From IMG/VR virus record IMGVR_UViG_3300045976_000126, positions 1-56,225 of that record: a DNA stretch of 56,225 nt; one strand, 5' to 3'. The notes under the pieces are model-generated. The model saw only the letters and a program-made list of their open reading frames with translations, was not told the DNA's origin and made no database searches. Of this stretch, positions 7,491-19,791 are shown piece by piece. A program made the translations under genes and the position numbers. Origin of the DNA: a virus. Each line of letters begins with the position of its first letter. The first letter of the stretch is position 1.

Positions 7491-9245
7491 TCAGTCGTTG
7501 GCGGACCCGGCGGCCGCGACCGTGGCCGCGATCGTCTCGGTAGCGACGGTGGCCGCGCTCGCGCCGGTCGGCTGAAGCACCATGGCCACGTGCAGAGACT
7601 CGATGCCCCGGAACGCGGTGTGCTCGAAGCCCTCGGCGAACGTCTGGTACTTGTTCTCGCCGACCAGCGTGCTGTCGCGGATGACGCCGATGTCCAGCGT
7701 GCCACCGTCCATCAGCAGCCAGTCGCCTTCGGCGAACAGCAGCACCGAGGTCACGTCCGGGTAGCCGGGCACGAAGCCGCCAGCGGTCACGGGCGAGTAG
7801 AACTGATTCGGGATGGTGAGCGGGTTGCCGCCGCCGATGTTGGCCGGCTTGATGCCGTCCATGTGCCAGGCCACGGCGACGTTGCGGGCCGCGAACCAGT
7901 CGGCGATCTGCGCGTCGGTGATCGCGAACACGCCGAGGCCGTCGCCGACCATCTGGCGGGCCAGGTCGGTCCGGATCATGTCCTTGAGCCACGCCGGGGC
8001 GATCATCCGCAGGTTCCGGTTCTGCGACAGCCGGTGCACGTTGCGGTAGTAGGCCACGATGTGGTCCAGGGTGGCCAGCGCGTCGCGGACAGCGCCGAGC
8101 AGCTGCTTGGACTGAATGGTGGTCGAACCGACCGTCAGCTGCCGAAGCAGCTCGTTCTCGGCCGCCTGCGCGTACGCGATGTCCTGTGCCTTGACGATCG
8201 AGTCCGCCCACTCGGGGTCGAAGCGGGCCGACATGTTCGAGATCGTCAGGCACTTGTAGATGGCCTGAACCTCGGCGGTCACCACGCCGGGGCAGTCGAT
8301 CTCAACGCAGGCCTTCGGCACGATCGGGTCGGCCGTGTCGTCCGCGTTCGTCCAGAAGCCGATGCCGCCCGTCTGGGCGACGCCGGACACGGCGGGCCGG
8401 TAGGTGAGGCCGCCCCGGTCGGCGGTCACCCGGTTGAGCGCGTCGCGGACCGGGCGGTCCGTGTCGCCGATCACCGGGATGTCGTACAGCACCTGTAGCG
8501 GGGCGCAGAACCCGCCGGCCGCGACCAGGCTGTCGGCCGTGGCCGCCTTGTCGACCAGCGCTTCCAGCTTGAGCTTGTTCTCGAAGGCGTCACCGGCACC
8601 GAACGTGCGGGACTCCGGGAACTCGGTGCGGATGCGCAGCACGTCGGTACGGCCGTTCAGGCCGGCGCTCAGCGCGCCGACGCGCCGGATCGCCTCGGCC
8701 ATCGCGTTCGCCATGCCCCGACGGTCGAGGTACTCGCCGGTCTCGCTGCCCGGGCCGGACAGGGCCATCGCGCGGACCGTCGCTGTGTCGGCCGTGCCCG
8801 GGCGCAGGCCGTTGCGACGACCGCCCAGCCGGCGGCCGGCTGCCTGCACGCCCGGCTCGGGCTGCTCGGTGCCGTTCTCGGGCTGCTCCGGGTCGTCCCC
8901 GGCCGGGTCGTCCTCGACCTTGTCGGGGCTGCCCTCATCGCCCGGCTCGGGGGCGGTGGTCAGCTCGGACAGCTGCGCCAGGGACGCCTTGCTCTCGGCC
9001 GCCCGCTGCGCGAACGCGGCCTCGGTGGTCTTGATCGCGGAGAACAGCGCCACCAGGCCCTGAACGTCGCTGAGCTCTTCCGCGCTCAGCTCGCCGGCCT
9101 TGTCGCTGTACTTCGCCGATCGCGCGAGCCCCTCCGCCTTGATGGCGGCGAGCTCGGCCGGAGTCTTGCCCGCGAGGGCTGCCTGCGCTTCGGCCAGCTG
9201 GTCACCGCCGGCCGCGAAGGCGGCAAGAATCTGCGTGATGTCCAC
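7491..9245 (-). CDS. Major capsid protein with N-terminal scaffold-like domain
   Basis: A 584-residue protein. GTG 9245 is chosen over an upstream in-frame codon because a GGAAGGGAAAG box precedes it. Residues about 1-150 are helical, then acidic and Pro-rich, resembling a fused scaffolding or delta domain that is normally cut off by the maturation protease. Residues about 175-570 show the pattern of an HK97-fold shell protein: a beta-rich start, a long central helix and an E-loop-like segment. Position and size support the major head protein. The cleavage site cannot be placed by reading alone. Confidence 0.85.
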   Translation of the reverse strand: MDITQILAAFAAGGDQLAEAQAALAGKTPAELAAIKAEGLARSAKYSDKAGELSAEELSDVQGLVALFSAIKTTEAAFAQRAAESKASLAQLSELTTAPEPGDEGSPDKVEDDPAGDDPEQPENGTEQPEPGVQAAGRRLGGRRNGLRPGTADTATVRAMALSGPGSETGEYLDRRGMANAMAEAIRRVGALSAGLNGRTDVLRIRTEFPESRTFGAGDAFENKLKLEALVDKAATADSLVAAGGFCAPLQVLYDIPVIGDTDRPVRDALNRVTADRGGLTYRPAVSGVAQTGGIGFWTNADDTADPIVPKACVEIDCPGVVTAEVQAIYKCLTISNMSARFDPEWADSIVKAQDIAYAQAAENELLRQLTVGSTTIQSKQLLGAVRDALATLDHIVAYYRNVHRLSQNRNLRMIAPAWLKDMIRTDLARQMVGDGLGVFAITDAQIADWFAARNVAVAWHMDGIKPANIGGGNPLTIPNQFYSPVTAGGFVPGYPDVTSVLLFAEGDWLLMDGGTLDIGVIRDSTLVGENKYQTFAEGFEHTAFRGIESLHVAMVLQPTGASAATVATETIAATVAAAGSAND

Positions 9246-9387
9246 GCTACTTTCCCTTCCGCTCAAACGTCCGATACGCGGGGCAGCTGGCTATGCCTGC
9301 GTCCGGCTGTTTCGGCTAGGCCGACCGGATCGATACCCGTTGTTCAGCGGAAGGGTAACGGCGTGTGTCGTCAATCGCGGGCGTGAA
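9246..9387 (-). other. 142-bp leader before the major capsid gene
   Basis: No reading frame of note. A TTGACG at the upstream end has no convincing -10 at 17 bp. The region may hold a late promoter of a different class or only a leader; I cannot support either. Confidence 0.4.
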
Positions 9388-11289: not shown

Positions 11290-14028
11290 CTAGTCCGTGT
11301 GGCTCTTGGCCTTCTTGGCCTCCCAGTCGGCCACTGCGGCGCAGGCCTCGGCCTTCGAGCCGGGGTTGACCTGCTGGGAGCCCGGGAAGTTCAGGTCGCC
11401 GGTCGCGCACATCTTCTTGGCCGCGTTCACCGCCGTGGCGATCGCCCGCGACTGATCCATGCCCTTTTCCGTCAGATGCTTCGCGATGCGCTTGATGTAC
11501 GACGGCAGGCCGCCGGCCTTCTGCACCCAGTTGGCCAGCTGCTCGGCCTCGATCAGCAGGGTCAGCTCGACCATGAGGTCCATCGTGGGCGACGCCAGGT
11601 CGTCGACCTCGCCGGCCGTGAGCTGGCCGAGCTGGGCCAGGGCCTTCGCGCTGGCCAGCTGGTGAGCCTCGCGGGCGGCCATGTGGCGCAGCATGACGTC
11701 GGCGAACTCGTCCATGTCGAAGTTCGGGACGCCGGGCCGCGTGACCGGCAGCTGTTCGAGTCGGCCGGCGGCGACCAGCGCCAGGGGCTCGCCCGAGGCG
11801 ACGCGGGCGCGCGGCACCGGGAAGCCGGGGGTGTTCACGCCGAGCACGGCCACCAGCTCAAGGCGGCCGCCGATGTTGCGCCAGTCGCCGGATGGCGGCG
11901 CGGCCCGGAACGCGTGCAGCTCGCTCGACGTGAGCGTGTCCCGCACCGTGCCGGACACCCAGATGCCGTGAGCGTCCTCCCCGCACACCACGTCAGCGCC
12001 GACGGTGCCGGTGTCGTCGTAGTGCCGGACCGTGCTCGCCGCCGACAGCCGGCCGGCCGCGTGGCCGGTGCCGAAGGTGAGGTGGCCGACGGCGACCGGG
12101 CCGGCGTCGGTCTGCACCTCGCCCGTGTGGAAGTAGGCGTACTGGCTGGCCGAGCGCGGCGCGGTGACGCACTGGCCGCTGAACCCGATGTGGCAGGTGC
12201 CCCACGTCGCGATGTGGCCGAAGACACGCCCGTCCTCGGTGAACGTGAGCGGCGTCGGCTTGGTGAGCTTCGGGTCGGCGAAGTGCTCGGCGGGCAGCAC
12301 GCGCACGGCAGCGGCCACCATGGACGGCTTGCCGCCGTTCAGCGGGTAGTCGACCGTGTGCTGCGGCGTCGCCACGCGGACCTTGCTGAACTTCACCGGT
12401 CCCGGATGGTTCAGCTTGGACAGGGCCTTGGCCGCGTCCGGCGACTGCTTGGCGGTGACGTGCGGCATGAACGGCTTGTGCTGCTCGGGCAGCTGCCGCC
12501 CGCTGCCGATGTTGGCGGCGACGTGCTGCCGCACCCGGTCGGCGAAGTCGCCGACGTCCTGGGAGTCGCCGAGCAGGTGGACAGCGGCCGGCGTCTGCTT
12601 GCCCGTCTTGCCGCCGTTGGGGTTGAACAGCGACGGGCCGAGGACGTGCGCCTTGATCGCGCCGCCCGGCTTCGGGCGCGGCTGAGGAATCGTCGGCTTG
12701 GTGGGCGGATTCCCTTGTGCCGCAGGTCCGGATGCGTCGGCGAACGGGCTGCCCTCGGCGATGTCCTCGGCGTCGGGCTGGCCGTCCTCGGGCGGCTCGG
12801 CGGCGTCCTCGGGGTCGCCGTCGTCGTCCGGGTCGGCGTTGTGGGCCGCGATCGCGTCGTTCACGCCCGCGTGCACGTCGGCGATCTCCTGCGGCGTCCA
12901 CTGGTCCAGGTCGTCGCCGAGGTACAGCAGTGTGCAGTGCATCTCGTCGGCGGGGTCGCCGCCGGGAATGGTGAACGCCTCGGGGTTGTCCGGGATCAGG
13001 GCCACCATGCCAGAGGTCGGGTACTGGTCGCCGGCCGCTCGGAGGTCGCGCTCCCACGGGGCGGTCTCGCCCACCTTCCGGTACAGACCGGCCAGCACGG
13101 CCTTGGCCTTGTCCTTGTCGGCGGCCGGCATGTTCGAGCTGTCCAGGCGGCCGGCGGCGGCGGGCAGGCTCGACGGCACCAGCTTCAGCTGCCCGTCGAT
13201 CACGTCGGCCACGGGGAAGCTGTACGCGCCGATCGTCTTCGGGTCGGCCGAGTCGTCCCGGTACAGGAAGGCCCGGGCCAGCTTGTCGGGGTCACCGTCG
13301 GCCCAGTCGCCGATGCGCTTCTGCGCCTCGCCGGCATCCCAGGCCATGCTGCCAGTGGCGGTGGGCAGGCTGTCGTAGCCGCTGCCGATGGTGGCGACCA
13401 GCTGGCCGGCCAGGCAGGGCGAGCAGACGTCGCCGAGCTCCGCCGAGCGCCACATCGGCGACGCGGACGCCGCCAGGGCCTCGGCGTTGGGCTGCACGGT
13501 CTCGCCGTCGAGCACCACATACGCGTCCGGAAACGCCGGCAGGCCTACGAGCGTGGTCGCGCCGATCACCCCCGACGTCATGGTGAGCTGCTCGCTCCCG
13601 TCATCGGCGAGCTGCACCTCGGCGTCGACGGCCGACAGGTCGACCGAGTTGCCGGACAGCGCGCCGTCCTTGACCATGCGGAACGCCGGCACGTCGGTGT
13701 ACATCCACCCGCTGCCGGACCACACGAACGTGCCTTCGGGGAACGGCTGGCCGGTGGACTTGCTGACCACCTCAGGGCCGGGCCGGCGCACCAGGTTGGT
13801 GAGCGCGCCCACCACGTCGGCGTTGTCGTGCCCCTGGCCGCCGTCCGGGGTGCGGGTCTGCGCGTACAGGGTGAGCGGCACGGCGCGGTGGGTGAGCGCG
13901 TTGGGCTCGATGTACCGGCCGTCCGCTGTGGGCATGCCCTCGACGGCGAGCACCGGAAAGCTGATCGGCGCAGCGTTCTCAGGGATGGCCGGCGCGCTGT
14001 CCGCCGACTCGATCACGGGGGCAGTCAT
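11290..14028 (-). CDS. Multidomain capsid maturation protease with 2H-phosphoesterase-like domain
   Basis: A 912-residue protein starting at ATG 14028, overlapping the portal stop as ATGA. Residues 1-190 resemble the N-terminal domain of actinophage head maturation proteases (Gly-Arg-x-Ile-Glu-Pro, then Gly-His-Asp). Residues 200-330 carry the Pro-Val-Ala-Asp-Val-Ile-Asp-Gly region often attached to them. His-Cys-Thr at 364-366 and His-Val-Thr at 523-525 form the paired H-x-T signature of 2H phosphoesterases, separated by an acidic, Pro-rich insert (about 395-455). Residues 600-745 hold a second protease-like block with Ser-Gly-Asp-Trp-Arg at 713-717. The C-terminus has a Lys/Cys domain common in actinophages. 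Domain calls are from memory of families. Confidence 0.75.
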   Translation of the reverse strand: MTAPVIESADSAPAIPENAAPISFPVLAVEGMPTADGRYIEPNALTHRAVPLTLYAQTRTPDGGQGHDNADVVGALTNLVRRPGPEVVSKSTGQPFPEGTFVWSGSGWMYTDVPAFRMVKDGALSGNSVDLSAVDAEVQLADDGSEQLTMTSGVIGATTLVGLPAFPDAYVVLDGETVQPNAEALAASASPMWRSAELGDVCSPCLAGQLVATIGSGYDSLPTATGSMAWDAGEAQKRIGDWADGDPDKLARAFLYRDDSADPKTIGAYSFPVADVIDGQLKLVPSSLPAAAGRLDSSNMPAADKDKAKAVLAGLYRKVGETAPWERDLRAAGDQYPTSGMVALIPDNPEAFTIPGGDPADEMHCTLLYLGDDLDQWTPQEIADVHAGVNDAIAAHNADPDDDGDPEDAAEPPEDGQPDAEDIAEGSPFADASGPAAQGNPPTKPTIPQPRPKPGGAIKAHVLGPSLFNPNGGKTGKQTPAAVHLLGDSQDVGDFADRVRQHVAANIGSGRQLPEQHKPFMPHVTAKQSPDAAKALSKLNHPGPVKFSKVRVATPQHTVDYPLNGGKPSMVAAAVRVLPAEHFADPKLTKPTPLTFTEDGRVFGHIATWGTCHIGFSGQCVTAPRSASQYAYFHTGEVQTDAGPVAVGHLTFGTGHAAGRLSAASTVRHYDDTGTVGADVVCGEDAHGIWVSGTVRDTLTSSELHAFRAAPPSGDWRNIGGRLELVAVLGVNTPGFPVPRARVASGEPLALVAAGRLEQLPVTRPGVPNFDMDEFADVMLRHMAAREAHQLASAKALAQLGQLTAGEVDDLASPTMDLMVELTLLIEAEQLANWVQKAGGLPSYIKRIAKHLTEKGMDQSRAIATAVNAAKKMCATGDLNFPGSQQVNPGSKAEACAAVADWEAKKAKSHTD

Positions 14029-16763
14029 GACGTGGCCTTTCCGCCGTTGATGAACCGGGCCTGCAAACGCTGAATGCGTGCATGCTGGTCGCGCAGCTGC
14101 TGCGCGTTGGTGTTCTTGCGGCCGGCCTGGTCGTCCATCTGCGCGAGCGCGATGATGTTGGCCATGTCGGTCGTTGGCTTGGTGAGCCGGTCGGCGACCT
14201 GCTTGCCGTACTTCGGGACGGCGTAGGCCGGCACGTAGTCGCACATGCAGCCGGCATGGTCGCCGGGGTGCATGTGGTCGCCCAGCCACTGATAGCCGGG
14301 CGGCGGGTCGAGCTGCGGATCCGACCAGTCGGCGAAGCGGATGCCCTCGATGGCCAGGTGCGGCACGAAGTTGTGCGGCGCGAGCGTGACGCCGTACACC
14401 CACAGGTAGCCGAGCTCGATCGCGCCGTGCTCGGCCAACACGTGCTGAACGGTGCTACCGGTCGCGATGCCGGCGGCCGGCGCGGTGCTGCGCCCCCTGC
14501 TGTCGACGTGCGCCGCGCCTTCCCCCGTGCCGCCGATGTCGGCGAGCACGGCCCGCACCATGCCAGGGGCGACCCGCGAATCGGCGATCTCGCTGTCGGT
14601 GGGCGGCTCGTACTCGCCGTGCAGCACCTTGTCGGCGAGGCCTTCGAGGTCGCTGTTGAGGCGATGCCAGCCGTCCTGCACGCGCCCGGCCAGCTCGGCG
14701 TGAACGCGGTCGTGCAGCCGGTGCGCGGCGTCGCTGCCGGCGGGAACGCCGAGCATGCGGACGAGCTTGGCGGCGATCTTGCCGACGGCGGCCAGCGTCC
14801 AGCTGACGAACTTGGTTTCGAGCGCGGCAAACGCGCCGGCCACCAGAAAATCGGTGGTCGCCCCAGCCGTGATGGCCCGCTGCCGGCCGATGAACTGGCC
14901 CCACTCCTCGGGCGGCAGGGACCGCAGCCGCTGGGAGATCACGGGGTCGCCGCTGAACTTCGAGCGCAGCTTGCTCGCGCCGCGCCGCACCACCTCGGAC
15001 AGCATGGTGTCGGCGGCGATGATGATGCGCTCGCGCAGTGCCTGCTCGATGCGCACGATGTCGTGCATCTGGTCGTGCACAAGCTCGTAGTCGGGGTCGG
15101 CCTCGACGGCAGCCGCGACCATCGACAGCTTGGCGCTGAGCCGTTCGAGGATGGTCGCCCCGTCGGACGTGAGGCCCGGCGGGGTGGCCGGCGGCTGGCC
15201 CGTCCCGGCCGGCAGCGCGGCGGGCTCGCCGACTTCCTTCGTGCTGCCGTCGGCCGGGGTGCCGCCCTTGTCTCCGATGGCCACGGTCTCGCGCGTGGGC
15301 AGCACGACTTCCTTGCCGGGGCTCAGCGTGCGCTGAATCAGCTGGGATGCGGTCAGCGGGTCGAAGGCCGTGCGGAGCAGCAGCATGCGCAGCAGTTCGT
15401 CATCGCTCGGCTTGTCGCTGTCGTTGAAGCCCAGCTCGCGCAGCAGGGCGTCGAAGCCGATGCCGCCCATGTTGAAGGCGTCGATGGCGTCCTGTCGGCG
15501 GTTCGTGTTCTCCACCAACATGCCGGCGTCGTACCAGACGCGGATCCGCTTGACGTCCTTCGGATCCCAGCCGTCTTGGATCAGGTTGTACCGCAGGTAG
15601 GCGACCGTCAGCGAGTCGCCCATGCGGCGGGTGCCGGGTTCGAGGTGGTAGCGGAAGGTGCTGGCGTCGATCTGCCACGCGGACCAGTGGTTCGAGTCAC
15701 CCAGGCCGGCGATCACCTCGGGCGGCAGGTCGAGGCCTCGGCCCATGCGGCGCAGGAAGCCTTCGAGCTTCTCGGCCAGCTCGGGCGACGTCTCACGGGC
15801 GAGCTGTAGGTGCGTGACCGCCTTGATGTCCTCGGCCTCGCCGGTGAGCACGACCGGCACGACGCCACCCGGGTCGCCTTCGTTGGTGATGGGCGCGAGC
15901 ATGGCGGCGGTGAACTCGCCCATGAACTTGTCGTCCGACACCGAGACGTCGCCGTCTTCGGTGGTGGCCCGGGACAGCATCATCGAGTTCGGGAACATGA
16001 GCAGGCCGTTGGCGGCGATGCGCGAGCGTGCGGCCGCCCGGATCTCCCGGCCGGTCAGCACGATGTCCTCGAAGGTGTCGAGCGCAGCCTGACAGGGGCT
16101 GTCGGCGAGGATGCCGCGTCGCGGGTGTGGCACCCACAGCCGGTACAGCTCTTCGGTGTCCCAGTCGACGTACCGGCGCTGGCCCGGGTTGTCGTCGTCC
16201 TCGATCTGGCAGCTGCGTCCGTCCTGGCCGGGGAACACTTCATCGATTGAGCGGATGCGCCAGCGCTCTTCGCCGGACTCGGCGTCGATCATGCCGTGCA
16301 GCCAGCACTCGCCAGCGATGTCGTTGTTCTCGGACCACGCGCCGAGGAACCCGAAGCCGTCGTCGAGCGGCAGCCGGTTCAGCAGGGCCTCGGCGGCGTC
16401 GGCGAGGCCCTCGGGCAGGTCGATCTGCGCCGCCTTCTTGGGGTCCTTGTCGTTGCGCAGGGACAGCGGGATCGGCTCGTCGTCGTCGTCGATGATCAGC
16501 GCGGCGTAGAAGCGGACGCGGCTGATCGCGTTCGAGCGGAAGCCGGTGGCGAACCGCAGCTCGGGGATCGAGTCGCGGTACCGCCACGCCAGTGACTGCC
16601 ACTGCTGGCGGGCCTGCGCGACGGCGCGCAGCTGGTTCGTGCCGCCGGCCTCGGTGGGCACGATGCGCATGCCGGCGGCGCGCAGGGTGCGCACGTGCTT
16701 GGACTCGCCGGGCTCGGTGACTTCGTGCGAGCGGAAGCCGAACCGCTGGAGCAGGGTCGTCAC
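14025..16763 (-). CDS. Portal protein fused to a MuF-like C-terminal domain
   Basis: A 912-residue protein starting at GTG 16763 after GGGGAG. The first about 500 residues follow the pattern of siphovirus portals: an N-terminal arm, wing with Asp-rich strands, a stem region with Leu-Pro-Pro-Glu-Val-Ile-Ala-Gly, and a clip. A Gly/Pro linker follows near residues 500-540. The C-terminal part is helical and ends in a minor-head-protein block with His-Pro-Gly-Asp-His-Ala-Gly-Cys-Met-Cys near residue 850, the MuF-type motif. Usual portals are 450-550 residues, so this is a natural portal and minor capsid fusion. Confidence 0.85.
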   Translation of the reverse strand: MTTLLQRFGFRSHEVTEPGESKHVRTLRAAGMRIVPTEAGGTNQLRAVAQARQQWQSLAWRYRDSIPELRFATGFRSNAISRVRFYAALIIDDDDEPIPLSLRNDKDPKKAAQIDLPEGLADAAEALLNRLPLDDGFGFLGAWSENNDIAGECWLHGMIDAESGEERWRIRSIDEVFPGQDGRSCQIEDDDNPGQRRYVDWDTEELYRLWVPHPRRGILADSPCQAALDTFEDIVLTGREIRAAARSRIAANGLLMFPNSMMLSRATTEDGDVSVSDDKFMGEFTAAMLAPITNEGDPGGVVPVVLTGEAEDIKAVTHLQLARETSPELAEKLEGFLRRMGRGLDLPPEVIAGLGDSNHWSAWQIDASTFRYHLEPGTRRMGDSLTVAYLRYNLIQDGWDPKDVKRIRVWYDAGMLVENTNRRQDAIDAFNMGGIGFDALLRELGFNDSDKPSDDELLRMLLLRTAFDPLTASQLIQRTLSPGKEVVLPTRETVAIGDKGGTPADGSTKEVGEPAALPAGTGQPPATPPGLTSDGATILERLSAKLSMVAAAVEADPDYELVHDQMHDIVRIEQALRERIIIAADTMLSEVVRRGASKLRSKFSGDPVISQRLRSLPPEEWGQFIGRQRAITAGATTDFLVAGAFAALETKFVSWTLAAVGKIAAKLVRMLGVPAGSDAAHRLHDRVHAELAGRVQDGWHRLNSDLEGLADKVLHGEYEPPTDSEIADSRVAPGMVRAVLADIGGTGEGAAHVDSRGRSTAPAAGIATGSTVQHVLAEHGAIELGYLWVYGVTLAPHNFVPHLAIEGIRFADWSDPQLDPPPGYQWLGDHMHPGDHAGCMCDYVPAYAVPKYGKQVADRLTKPTTDMANIIALAQMDDQAGRKNTNAQQLRDQHARIQRLQARFINGGKATS

Positions 16764-19397: not shown

Positions 19398-19711
19398 CGC
19401 TGCTGGTCCCTCACGCGTAGCGGGATACCAGCGGACTTACTGCCGCCCTACGCACATGCCGTGAGCCTGGTGCACCAGGTGATCACGACCCGCCGTGGAG
19501 AGGCGGCGTGGCAGAGCCCGGCAGCGCGTGCGCCCTGCGCCTCGGCCGGCGGTGAAACCGACCGAGGCCTTGCCCGCTGCGTCACCCGGGCGTTTGGTGA
19601 GCGGCCCCACCTCACGCAGAAATCGGTCCGCCAGGCGACCGATCGCCGCCGAGGCCCGCCCGCCTTCCGGCAGGCTGCCCCGACCACTTGCAGCCGCTAC
19701 TGCGGCAACCG

Positions 19712-19791
19712 TGAGGCGGAAGGACTCGAACCTTCGCCTTCCCGCTCGGCGATTGACCGAACAGGCTGCTCTTCCCTTGAGCTACACCCCG
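19712..19791 (-). tRNA. tRNA-like gene with extended anticodon stem (atypical)
   Basis: An 80-nt segment with a good T arm (GAAGG, TTCGAGT, CCTTC), a D arm (GCTC, AAGGGAA, GAGC) and an acceptor stem pairing at six positions with two wobbles and a mismatch at 1-72. Between them lies a 9-bp stem (two or three G-T wobbles) with a 7-nt loop TCAATCG in place of a normal 5-bp anticodon stem. The loop lacks U33. It could be a degenerate tRNA, an unusual tRNA or a tRNA mimic; no amino acid is assigned. Confidence 0.45.

Follow-up and report, generated by a model that had tools for sequence, protein, structure and literature searches.

Why should a gene that lies among phage head genes carry the motif pair of a 2H phosphoesterase? 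The question is raised by a 912-residue polyprotein encoded in IMG/VR record IMGVR_UViG_3300045976_000126, of which positions 1-56,225, the whole stretch of 56,225 nucleotides analysed here, are called the window. The initial annotation had described a capsid protease polyprotein in which paired His-x-Thr motifs at residues 364 and 523 lie between protease-like blocks and are separated by an acidic insert of about 60 residues, and had proposed that a virion-linked 2H enzyme could enter the cell with the DNA and blunt a signalling defence such as CBASS or Thoeris. The ATG of the gene shares bases with the stop codon of the portal gene upstream, whose frame ends at 14025, and the open frame of the polyprotein gene itself extends to 14403, beyond the ATG at 14028. 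Given this overlap at its start and the major head gene downstream, the polyprotein occupies the usual place of a head maturation gene (Table 1). Two features expected of a virion-embedded polyvalent effector are present: the polyprotein is encoded among head genes, and the putative effector domain is in frame with a virion morphogenesis domain, the 2H domain lying between an N block and a C block. The C-terminal half of the portal protein resembles MuF, as judged by eye alone. Elsewhere in the window, at 19711-19791, ARAGORN gave a single odd tRNA-like match with an incomplete anticodon.

Table 1. Coordinates of the polyprotein gene, its parts and the neighbouring head genes in the window
Feature	Position	Strand	Residues	Remark
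Head maturation polyprotein with embedded 2H domain	11290..14028	-	912 aa	
N block	13495..13974	-	19-178	weakly S78 prohead-protease-like
Linker	13039..13449	-	194-330	fast-evolving
2H domain, first half	12841..13023	-	336-396	
First 2H motif	12916..12939	-		H364-C-T-L-L-Y-L-G
Insert	12664..12840	-	397-455	acidic, proline-rich, predicted disordered
2H domain, second half	12304..12663	-	456-575	
Second 2H motif	12445..12462	-		H523-V-T-A
C block	11743..12261	-	590-762	inside PHROG 'head maturation protease' match
Conserved C-terminal region	11293..11583	-	816-912	
Portal protein	14025..16763	-		PHROG match, residues 21-552
Major head protein	7491..9266	-		downstream of the polyprotein gene

Translation and a motif scan confirmed the two motifs, HCTL at H364 and HVTA at H523, and located two more Hx[TS] sites in the polyprotein at residues 649 and 851. 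Counting motifs was rejected as evidence for a 2H domain, because 1784 of 5000 shuffles of the protein (36%) also contain at least two Hx[TS]-hydrophobic sites, which makes the count worthless. The acidic insert was likewise confirmed: residues 397-458 include 15 Asp or Glu, 3 Lys or Arg and 14 Pro among 62 residues. In the predicted structure, ten-residue blocks of the insert (about residues 400-449) have mean pLDDT values of 47-60, as compared with 89-97 for the 2H core.

The designation of the flanking blocks as protease-like was borne out in part. The C block falls within residues 571-769, which are matched by phrog_18402 'head maturation protease' (E=1.6e-71 for the whole protein), but it found no match among PDB sequences, and the N block resembles S78 proteases weakly: PF04586 (S78) matched 3 of the 27 members of the N-block alignment at E<=0.1 (best 2.8e-4), the window protein itself being unmatched. 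Ser128 of the N block is invariant in all 27 rows, and His67 is absent in three (L018, L019 and L021). The possibility that the two blocks represent one duplicated protease fold was discarded, as profile comparison shows no similarity between them. A full-length model (mean pLDDT 56.6, pTM 0.31) was too poor in quality to be used for domain boundaries or for the folds of the blocks.

The 2H domain itself was probed by profile searches and by structure prediction. PF13563 (2_5_RNA_ligase2) matched the window protein at E=0.12 and 12.9 bits, below the curated cut-off of 27 (15.2 bits when the window record was searched alone), and Pfam alone is therefore too weak a proof; the same family passed its cut-off in 4 of 9 relatives (L022, L028, L035 and L054) and in 5 of 10 of another set. 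PF23474 (Acb1) gave no match to the window at E<=10 and matched two relatives, L035 and L040, both under the cut-off. PHROG 2659 matched residues 457-564 (E=1.2e-17 for the whole protein), and a 24-row 2H profile compared with PDB sequences found the LigT-like protein 1iuh at E=1.9e-9. An AlphaFold model of residues 330-575, in which 152 of 246 residues reach a pLDDT of at least 90 and the insert is disordered, gave Foldseek matches with a best probability of 1.00 and a best E-value of 1.6e-3, none reaching 0.001, probably because of the disordered insert. VIA-align placed 1iuh first (Z 14.1 over 158 residues, 3.2 Å), with E. coli LigT at Z 12.3, phage Acb1 at Z 10.4 and 9.4 and poxvirus cGAMP PDE at Z 9.3. 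At Z>=8 there were 68 chains; 44 entries span Z 9.3-14.1, all of which we take to be 2H proteins, followed by CNPase, itself a 2H protein, at 4.2-4.9 and unrelated rows at 3.2. The model shows the internally duplicated 2H fold with its paired-strand motifs: H364/T366 and H523/T525 begin the strands at model positions 36-42 and 194-199. The initial reading of a 2H signature was thus upheld: the predicted fold is not an unrelated one, and both histidines are conserved, each in 99 of the 101 distinct homologous rows. That residues 336-575 form a 2H domain is well supported by predicted fold, profile match and conservation of the histidines.

Because the nearest folds are LigT-like and RNA-CPDase-like (Z 12-14) rather than Acb1 (Z 9-10), the substrate is not readable from the fold. 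These nearest matches, in fold as in profile, together with the relatives that pass the Pfam 2_5_RNA_ligase2 cut-off, favour a role in RNA end-healing, in which a LigT/ThpR-like 2',3'-cyclic phosphodiesterase would tidy tRNA or rRNA ends cut by host ribonucleases and leave completion of the repair to a host ligase. We consider this explanation unlikely, though it keeps some weight. RtcB and RNA_ligase families are absent from the window and from all 38 carrier records of at least 40 kb that were tested, some of which may be incomplete, and this absence weakens an RNA-repair reading; repair with a phage-encoded ligase is unsupported for the same reason, and a host ligase could still serve. A location among head genes would also be odd for a repair enzyme, and 2H domains of polyvalent proteins were never observed with RNA ligases, according to the relevant passages of PMC5512222.

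A search with the whole protein identified 47 related loci, in 23 of which one frame encodes both a 2H domain and a protease block. In the other 24, five of them cut by contig ends, no 2H domain was found in the frame, so assembly in many relatives proceeds without it. Eight 2H domains, used together as queries, returned at least 540 relatives; the best 80, which were kept, comprise 20 with an in-frame protease block, 22 stand-alone frames (<=300 residues) and 38 other longer frames. It is a common domain, and sequenced phages of Gordonia, Streptomyces, Mycobacterium and Rhodococcus account for another 62 records with a match. When 84,980 bacterial and archaeal genomes were scanned for relatives of the whole protein, a scan sensitive to close relatives only, six short-peptide-pattern matches were obtained and none was confirmed; a set of four 2H domains found five loci, in genomes of Micromonospora (three), Streptomyces and Rhodococcoides.

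The position of the 2H domain shifts among these proteins. It lies between the blocks in the window and in L012-L016, L018, L019, L021 and L022, at the N-terminus in L023, L024 and L054-L056, and after a MuF domain in L028, L035 and L040. Among named phages, Belphegor and Lilbeanie (Gordonia) have the C block followed by the 2H domain; YDN12, Xkcd426 and TurkishDelight (Streptomyces) have it between MuF and the blocks; and Curtobacterium phage Kithara has it at the N-terminus. In Phrappuccino, E3 and ScoobyDoobyDoo it forms a short gene of its own that closely follows the portal gene, and in Gordonia phage RedWattleHog a stand-alone copy lies past the major capsid gene, in the company of HNH and ribonucleotide-reductase genes. 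On a C-block tree of 62 rows, the fewest changes were nine for presence of the 2H domain and five for its position among carriers; these figures leave out L017, L020 and L041, whose frames are cut by contig ends and with which they become 13 and 5, and many branches of the tree are weakly supported, the starred branches alone forcing fewer changes.

Several relatives show further peculiarities. A single frame at L113:1623-5165 encodes a portal, a 2H domain, MuF and an ADP-ribosyltransferase. The family phrog_6439 (82 residues, function unknown) matches 22 of the 38 longer 2H frames, for example L071, L088, L090 and L103, and comes after the 2H domain in the frames shown individually. In L050:4759-7395, a relative without the 2H domain, a Cys-rich stretch before the N block resembles Anti-TRAP/DnaJ weakly (E=3e-4, under the cut-off) and is possibly another insert in the same kind of polyprotein. 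In Gordonia phage Belphegor, an annotated histidine-triad nucleotide-binding gene (L002:2678-3040) stands three genes before the 2H polyprotein.

Gene context supports the proposed link of the 2H domain to the virion. Among the 103 viral-contig loci, 43 encode the domain and a protease block as one frame (23 from the whole-protein search and 20 from the domain scan), and in a further 45 a portal match shares the frame or lies no more than 4.2 kb away (25 longer frames and 20 stand-alone copies); since loci were ranked by their resemblance to head-linked copies, and the near-identical L065-L070 and two contigs present twice (L022/L098 and L023/L116) are among them, the counts are neither unbiased nor independent and give no frequencies for phage 2H domains in general. 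For the 38 longer frames, 28 records contain a match to the phrog_2662 portal, which shares the frame or lies no further than 4.2 kb away in 25, is distant in two and is weak in one; it was not found in the remaining 10. All 22 records with stand-alone copies hold the phrog_2833 portal, within 3.5 kb in 20 and at 7.0 kb in L064 and 8.9 kb in L073, as compared with none of 14 control genomes. Portal proteins account for 17 of the 35 neighbours listed for stand-alone copies (out of 41; six on the minus strand were omitted, which removes L084). Among the 47 of 62 neighbours listed for the longer class, the phrog_2662 portal accounts for 16, and other portal, terminase and head families for fewer. 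A virion link is likely on this genomic evidence. No virion proteome of a carrier phage was recognised among the publications reached by the literature search.

The same context could be explained without packaging, if the 2H domain acts late in the producing cell as part of the precursor and is lost with the protease at head maturation. Co-expression with head genes would suffice to account for the position of the gene, maturation proteases are commonly removed, and stand-alone copies near the portal need no packaging signal. Repeated fusion at several positions and the portal-2H-MuF-ADP-ribosyltransferase chain of L113 nevertheless fit delivery better, and an enzyme expressed late would come late against an early alarm; we give this explanation a low probability.

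Whether the domain is likely to be an active enzyme was evaluated from an alignment of 114 rows (the window, 10 named phage genes and 103 viral-contig loci), which reduce to 101 distinct rows. Of these, 94 have the full HxT/HxT tetrad. Four of the others have Ala, Cys or Ile in place of the second-motif Thr, L096 has Arg in place of the first His, and L123, counted among the seven incomplete rows, ends before the second motif. In L052:4216-7422 both catalytic histidines are replaced by Tyr, and this is likely to be a non-catalytic version. The window clade is itself without two consensus residues, having Q528 where a Tyr follows the second motif in 82 of 101 rows and S548 where 75 of 101 have Asp. 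In comparisons with the four nearest relatives (L012-L015), pN/pS is 0.19-0.37 for the 2H halves, close to the protease blocks (0.20-0.24) and mostly lower than the insert (0.38-0.90), with the linker at 0.46-1.21; within this set, constraint on the 2H core comes close to that on the protease blocks. When L016, a more distant relative, is compared, the values are 0.52 and 0.99 for the 2H halves and 0.36 and 0.48 for the protease blocks. The linker (residues 194-330) has 38-66% identity to five close relatives. Its identity to L013/L014 (window 13039-13449) is as low as 38%, against 85-89% on either flank, as if it had been exchanged. The best reading of the predicted fold, the intact tetrad and the purifying selection among close relatives is that the 2H domain is catalytically competent. 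A structural or nucleotide-sensing role, with the fold binding within the procapsid and catalysis incidental, would accommodate L052 and the presence among the VIA-align matches of AKAP18 and mitoribosomal 2H folds, which act by binding, but is very improbable given how widely all four catalytic residues are kept and how many relatives assemble without the domain.

The reading that we favour, with chances that we judge about evenly balanced, is that residues 336-575 are a competent 2H enzyme that is made within the polyprotein, retained in the head and injected, and that most likely cleaves a defence nucleotide. Gene fusion and neighbourhood are what suggest that the domain is packaged. During head assembly the polyprotein would be targeted into the procapsid, where the phage protease would cut the linkers on both flanks of the 2H domain. 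The freed 2H enzyme would remain in the head and enter the next cell alongside the DNA; that assembly proteases often leave or digest themselves speaks against packaging. Its two histidines would serve as general acid and base in metal-free catalysis, opening a cyclic phosphodiester, or one adjacent to a 2'-OH, in a small RNA-type molecule. The most likely substrate would be a signal nucleotide of an early-infection defence, of the CBASS or type III CRISPR type, and the attack would precede the phage's own protein synthesis. If pre-loaded in the virion, a 2H copy would act from time zero. A broader proposal, possible although on balance doubtful, is that in actinobacterial phages the head maturation polyprotein is a docking slot for a mobile 2H domain, which the phage protease would free inside the head; the enzyme, pre-loaded and not newly expressed, would silence a nucleotide alarm of the host ahead of all phage gene expression.

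Papers of 2017 and 2022 (PMC5512222, PMC9503650) already put forward the general idea, in which a 2H domain carried on MuF or portal proteins is injected to act on nucleotide signals. In their passages on these fusions, PMC5512222 reports fusions of 2H domains with MuF or portal proteins and proposes that they act as RNases or degrade nucleotides used in defence, and PMC9503650 takes such fusions to suggest packaging and injection against oligonucleotide signalling. The proposal in the initial annotation is, in the terms of these passages, an instance of the printed one. For a 2H domain in a capsid maturation protease, a search of open-licence literature found no printed description in the passages that it returned. 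The printed proposal now becomes directly testable in named, cultured phages.

Comparison with known systems sets the window protein apart from each of them. The closest solved folds and the best profile match are those of the LigT/ThpR RNA 2',3'-cyclic phosphodiesterases (PDB 5ldi-5ldq) and 1iuh; those proteins are cellular and stand-alone, whereas in the window the domain is part of a polyprotein that scores under the Pfam cut-off. Acb1 (PMC9117128; PDB 7t26, 9q2g), a nuclease that counters CBASS signals, is likewise a phage protein with the 2H fold and an HxT/HxT tetrad, H44/T46/H113/T115, and the passages of PMC9117128 on its activity report that it cuts cyclic nucleotides and that this was followed in lysates of infected cells. 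Acb1, however, is not fused to other proteins (its PDB chains have 144 and 165 residues), its fold match at Z 9.4-10.4 is weaker than that of LigT-like proteins, and the window protein is without a PF23474 match. Closer at hand are actinophage genes such as EMoore 13 and YDN12_12 (named 'RNA ligase', 'head maturation protease' or 'MuF-like fusion'), which encode polyproteins with a homologous 2H domain in different domain orders: MuF-2H-blocks in the Streptomyces phages, C block-2H in Belphegor and Lilbeanie, and 2H first in Kithara. Public records conflict in naming them: EMoore gene 13 is 'RNA ligase' in MN586047.1 and 'head maturation protease' in NC_053243.1, and across KP876465.1/NC_028974.1 and the EMoore records the same polyproteins appear as portal protein, RNA ligase, head maturation protease and MuF fusion. 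The evidence suggests that the product name 'RNA ligase' is misleading for these genes; the best reading, from sequence and modelled structure, is that head polyproteins of actinobacterial phages carry an active 2H enzyme. Like the polyvalent 2H-MuF and 2H-portal proteins of PMC5512222 and PMC9503650, the window protein places a 2H domain in a tailed-phage head protein, with packaging and injection against nucleotide signals as the proposed role. It differs from the proteins described in those passages in that the partner is a head maturation protease polyprotein, the position of the domain is variable and an acidic insert of about 60 residues interrupts it; what is added here is the fusion of the 2H domain to the maturation protease and its shifting position.
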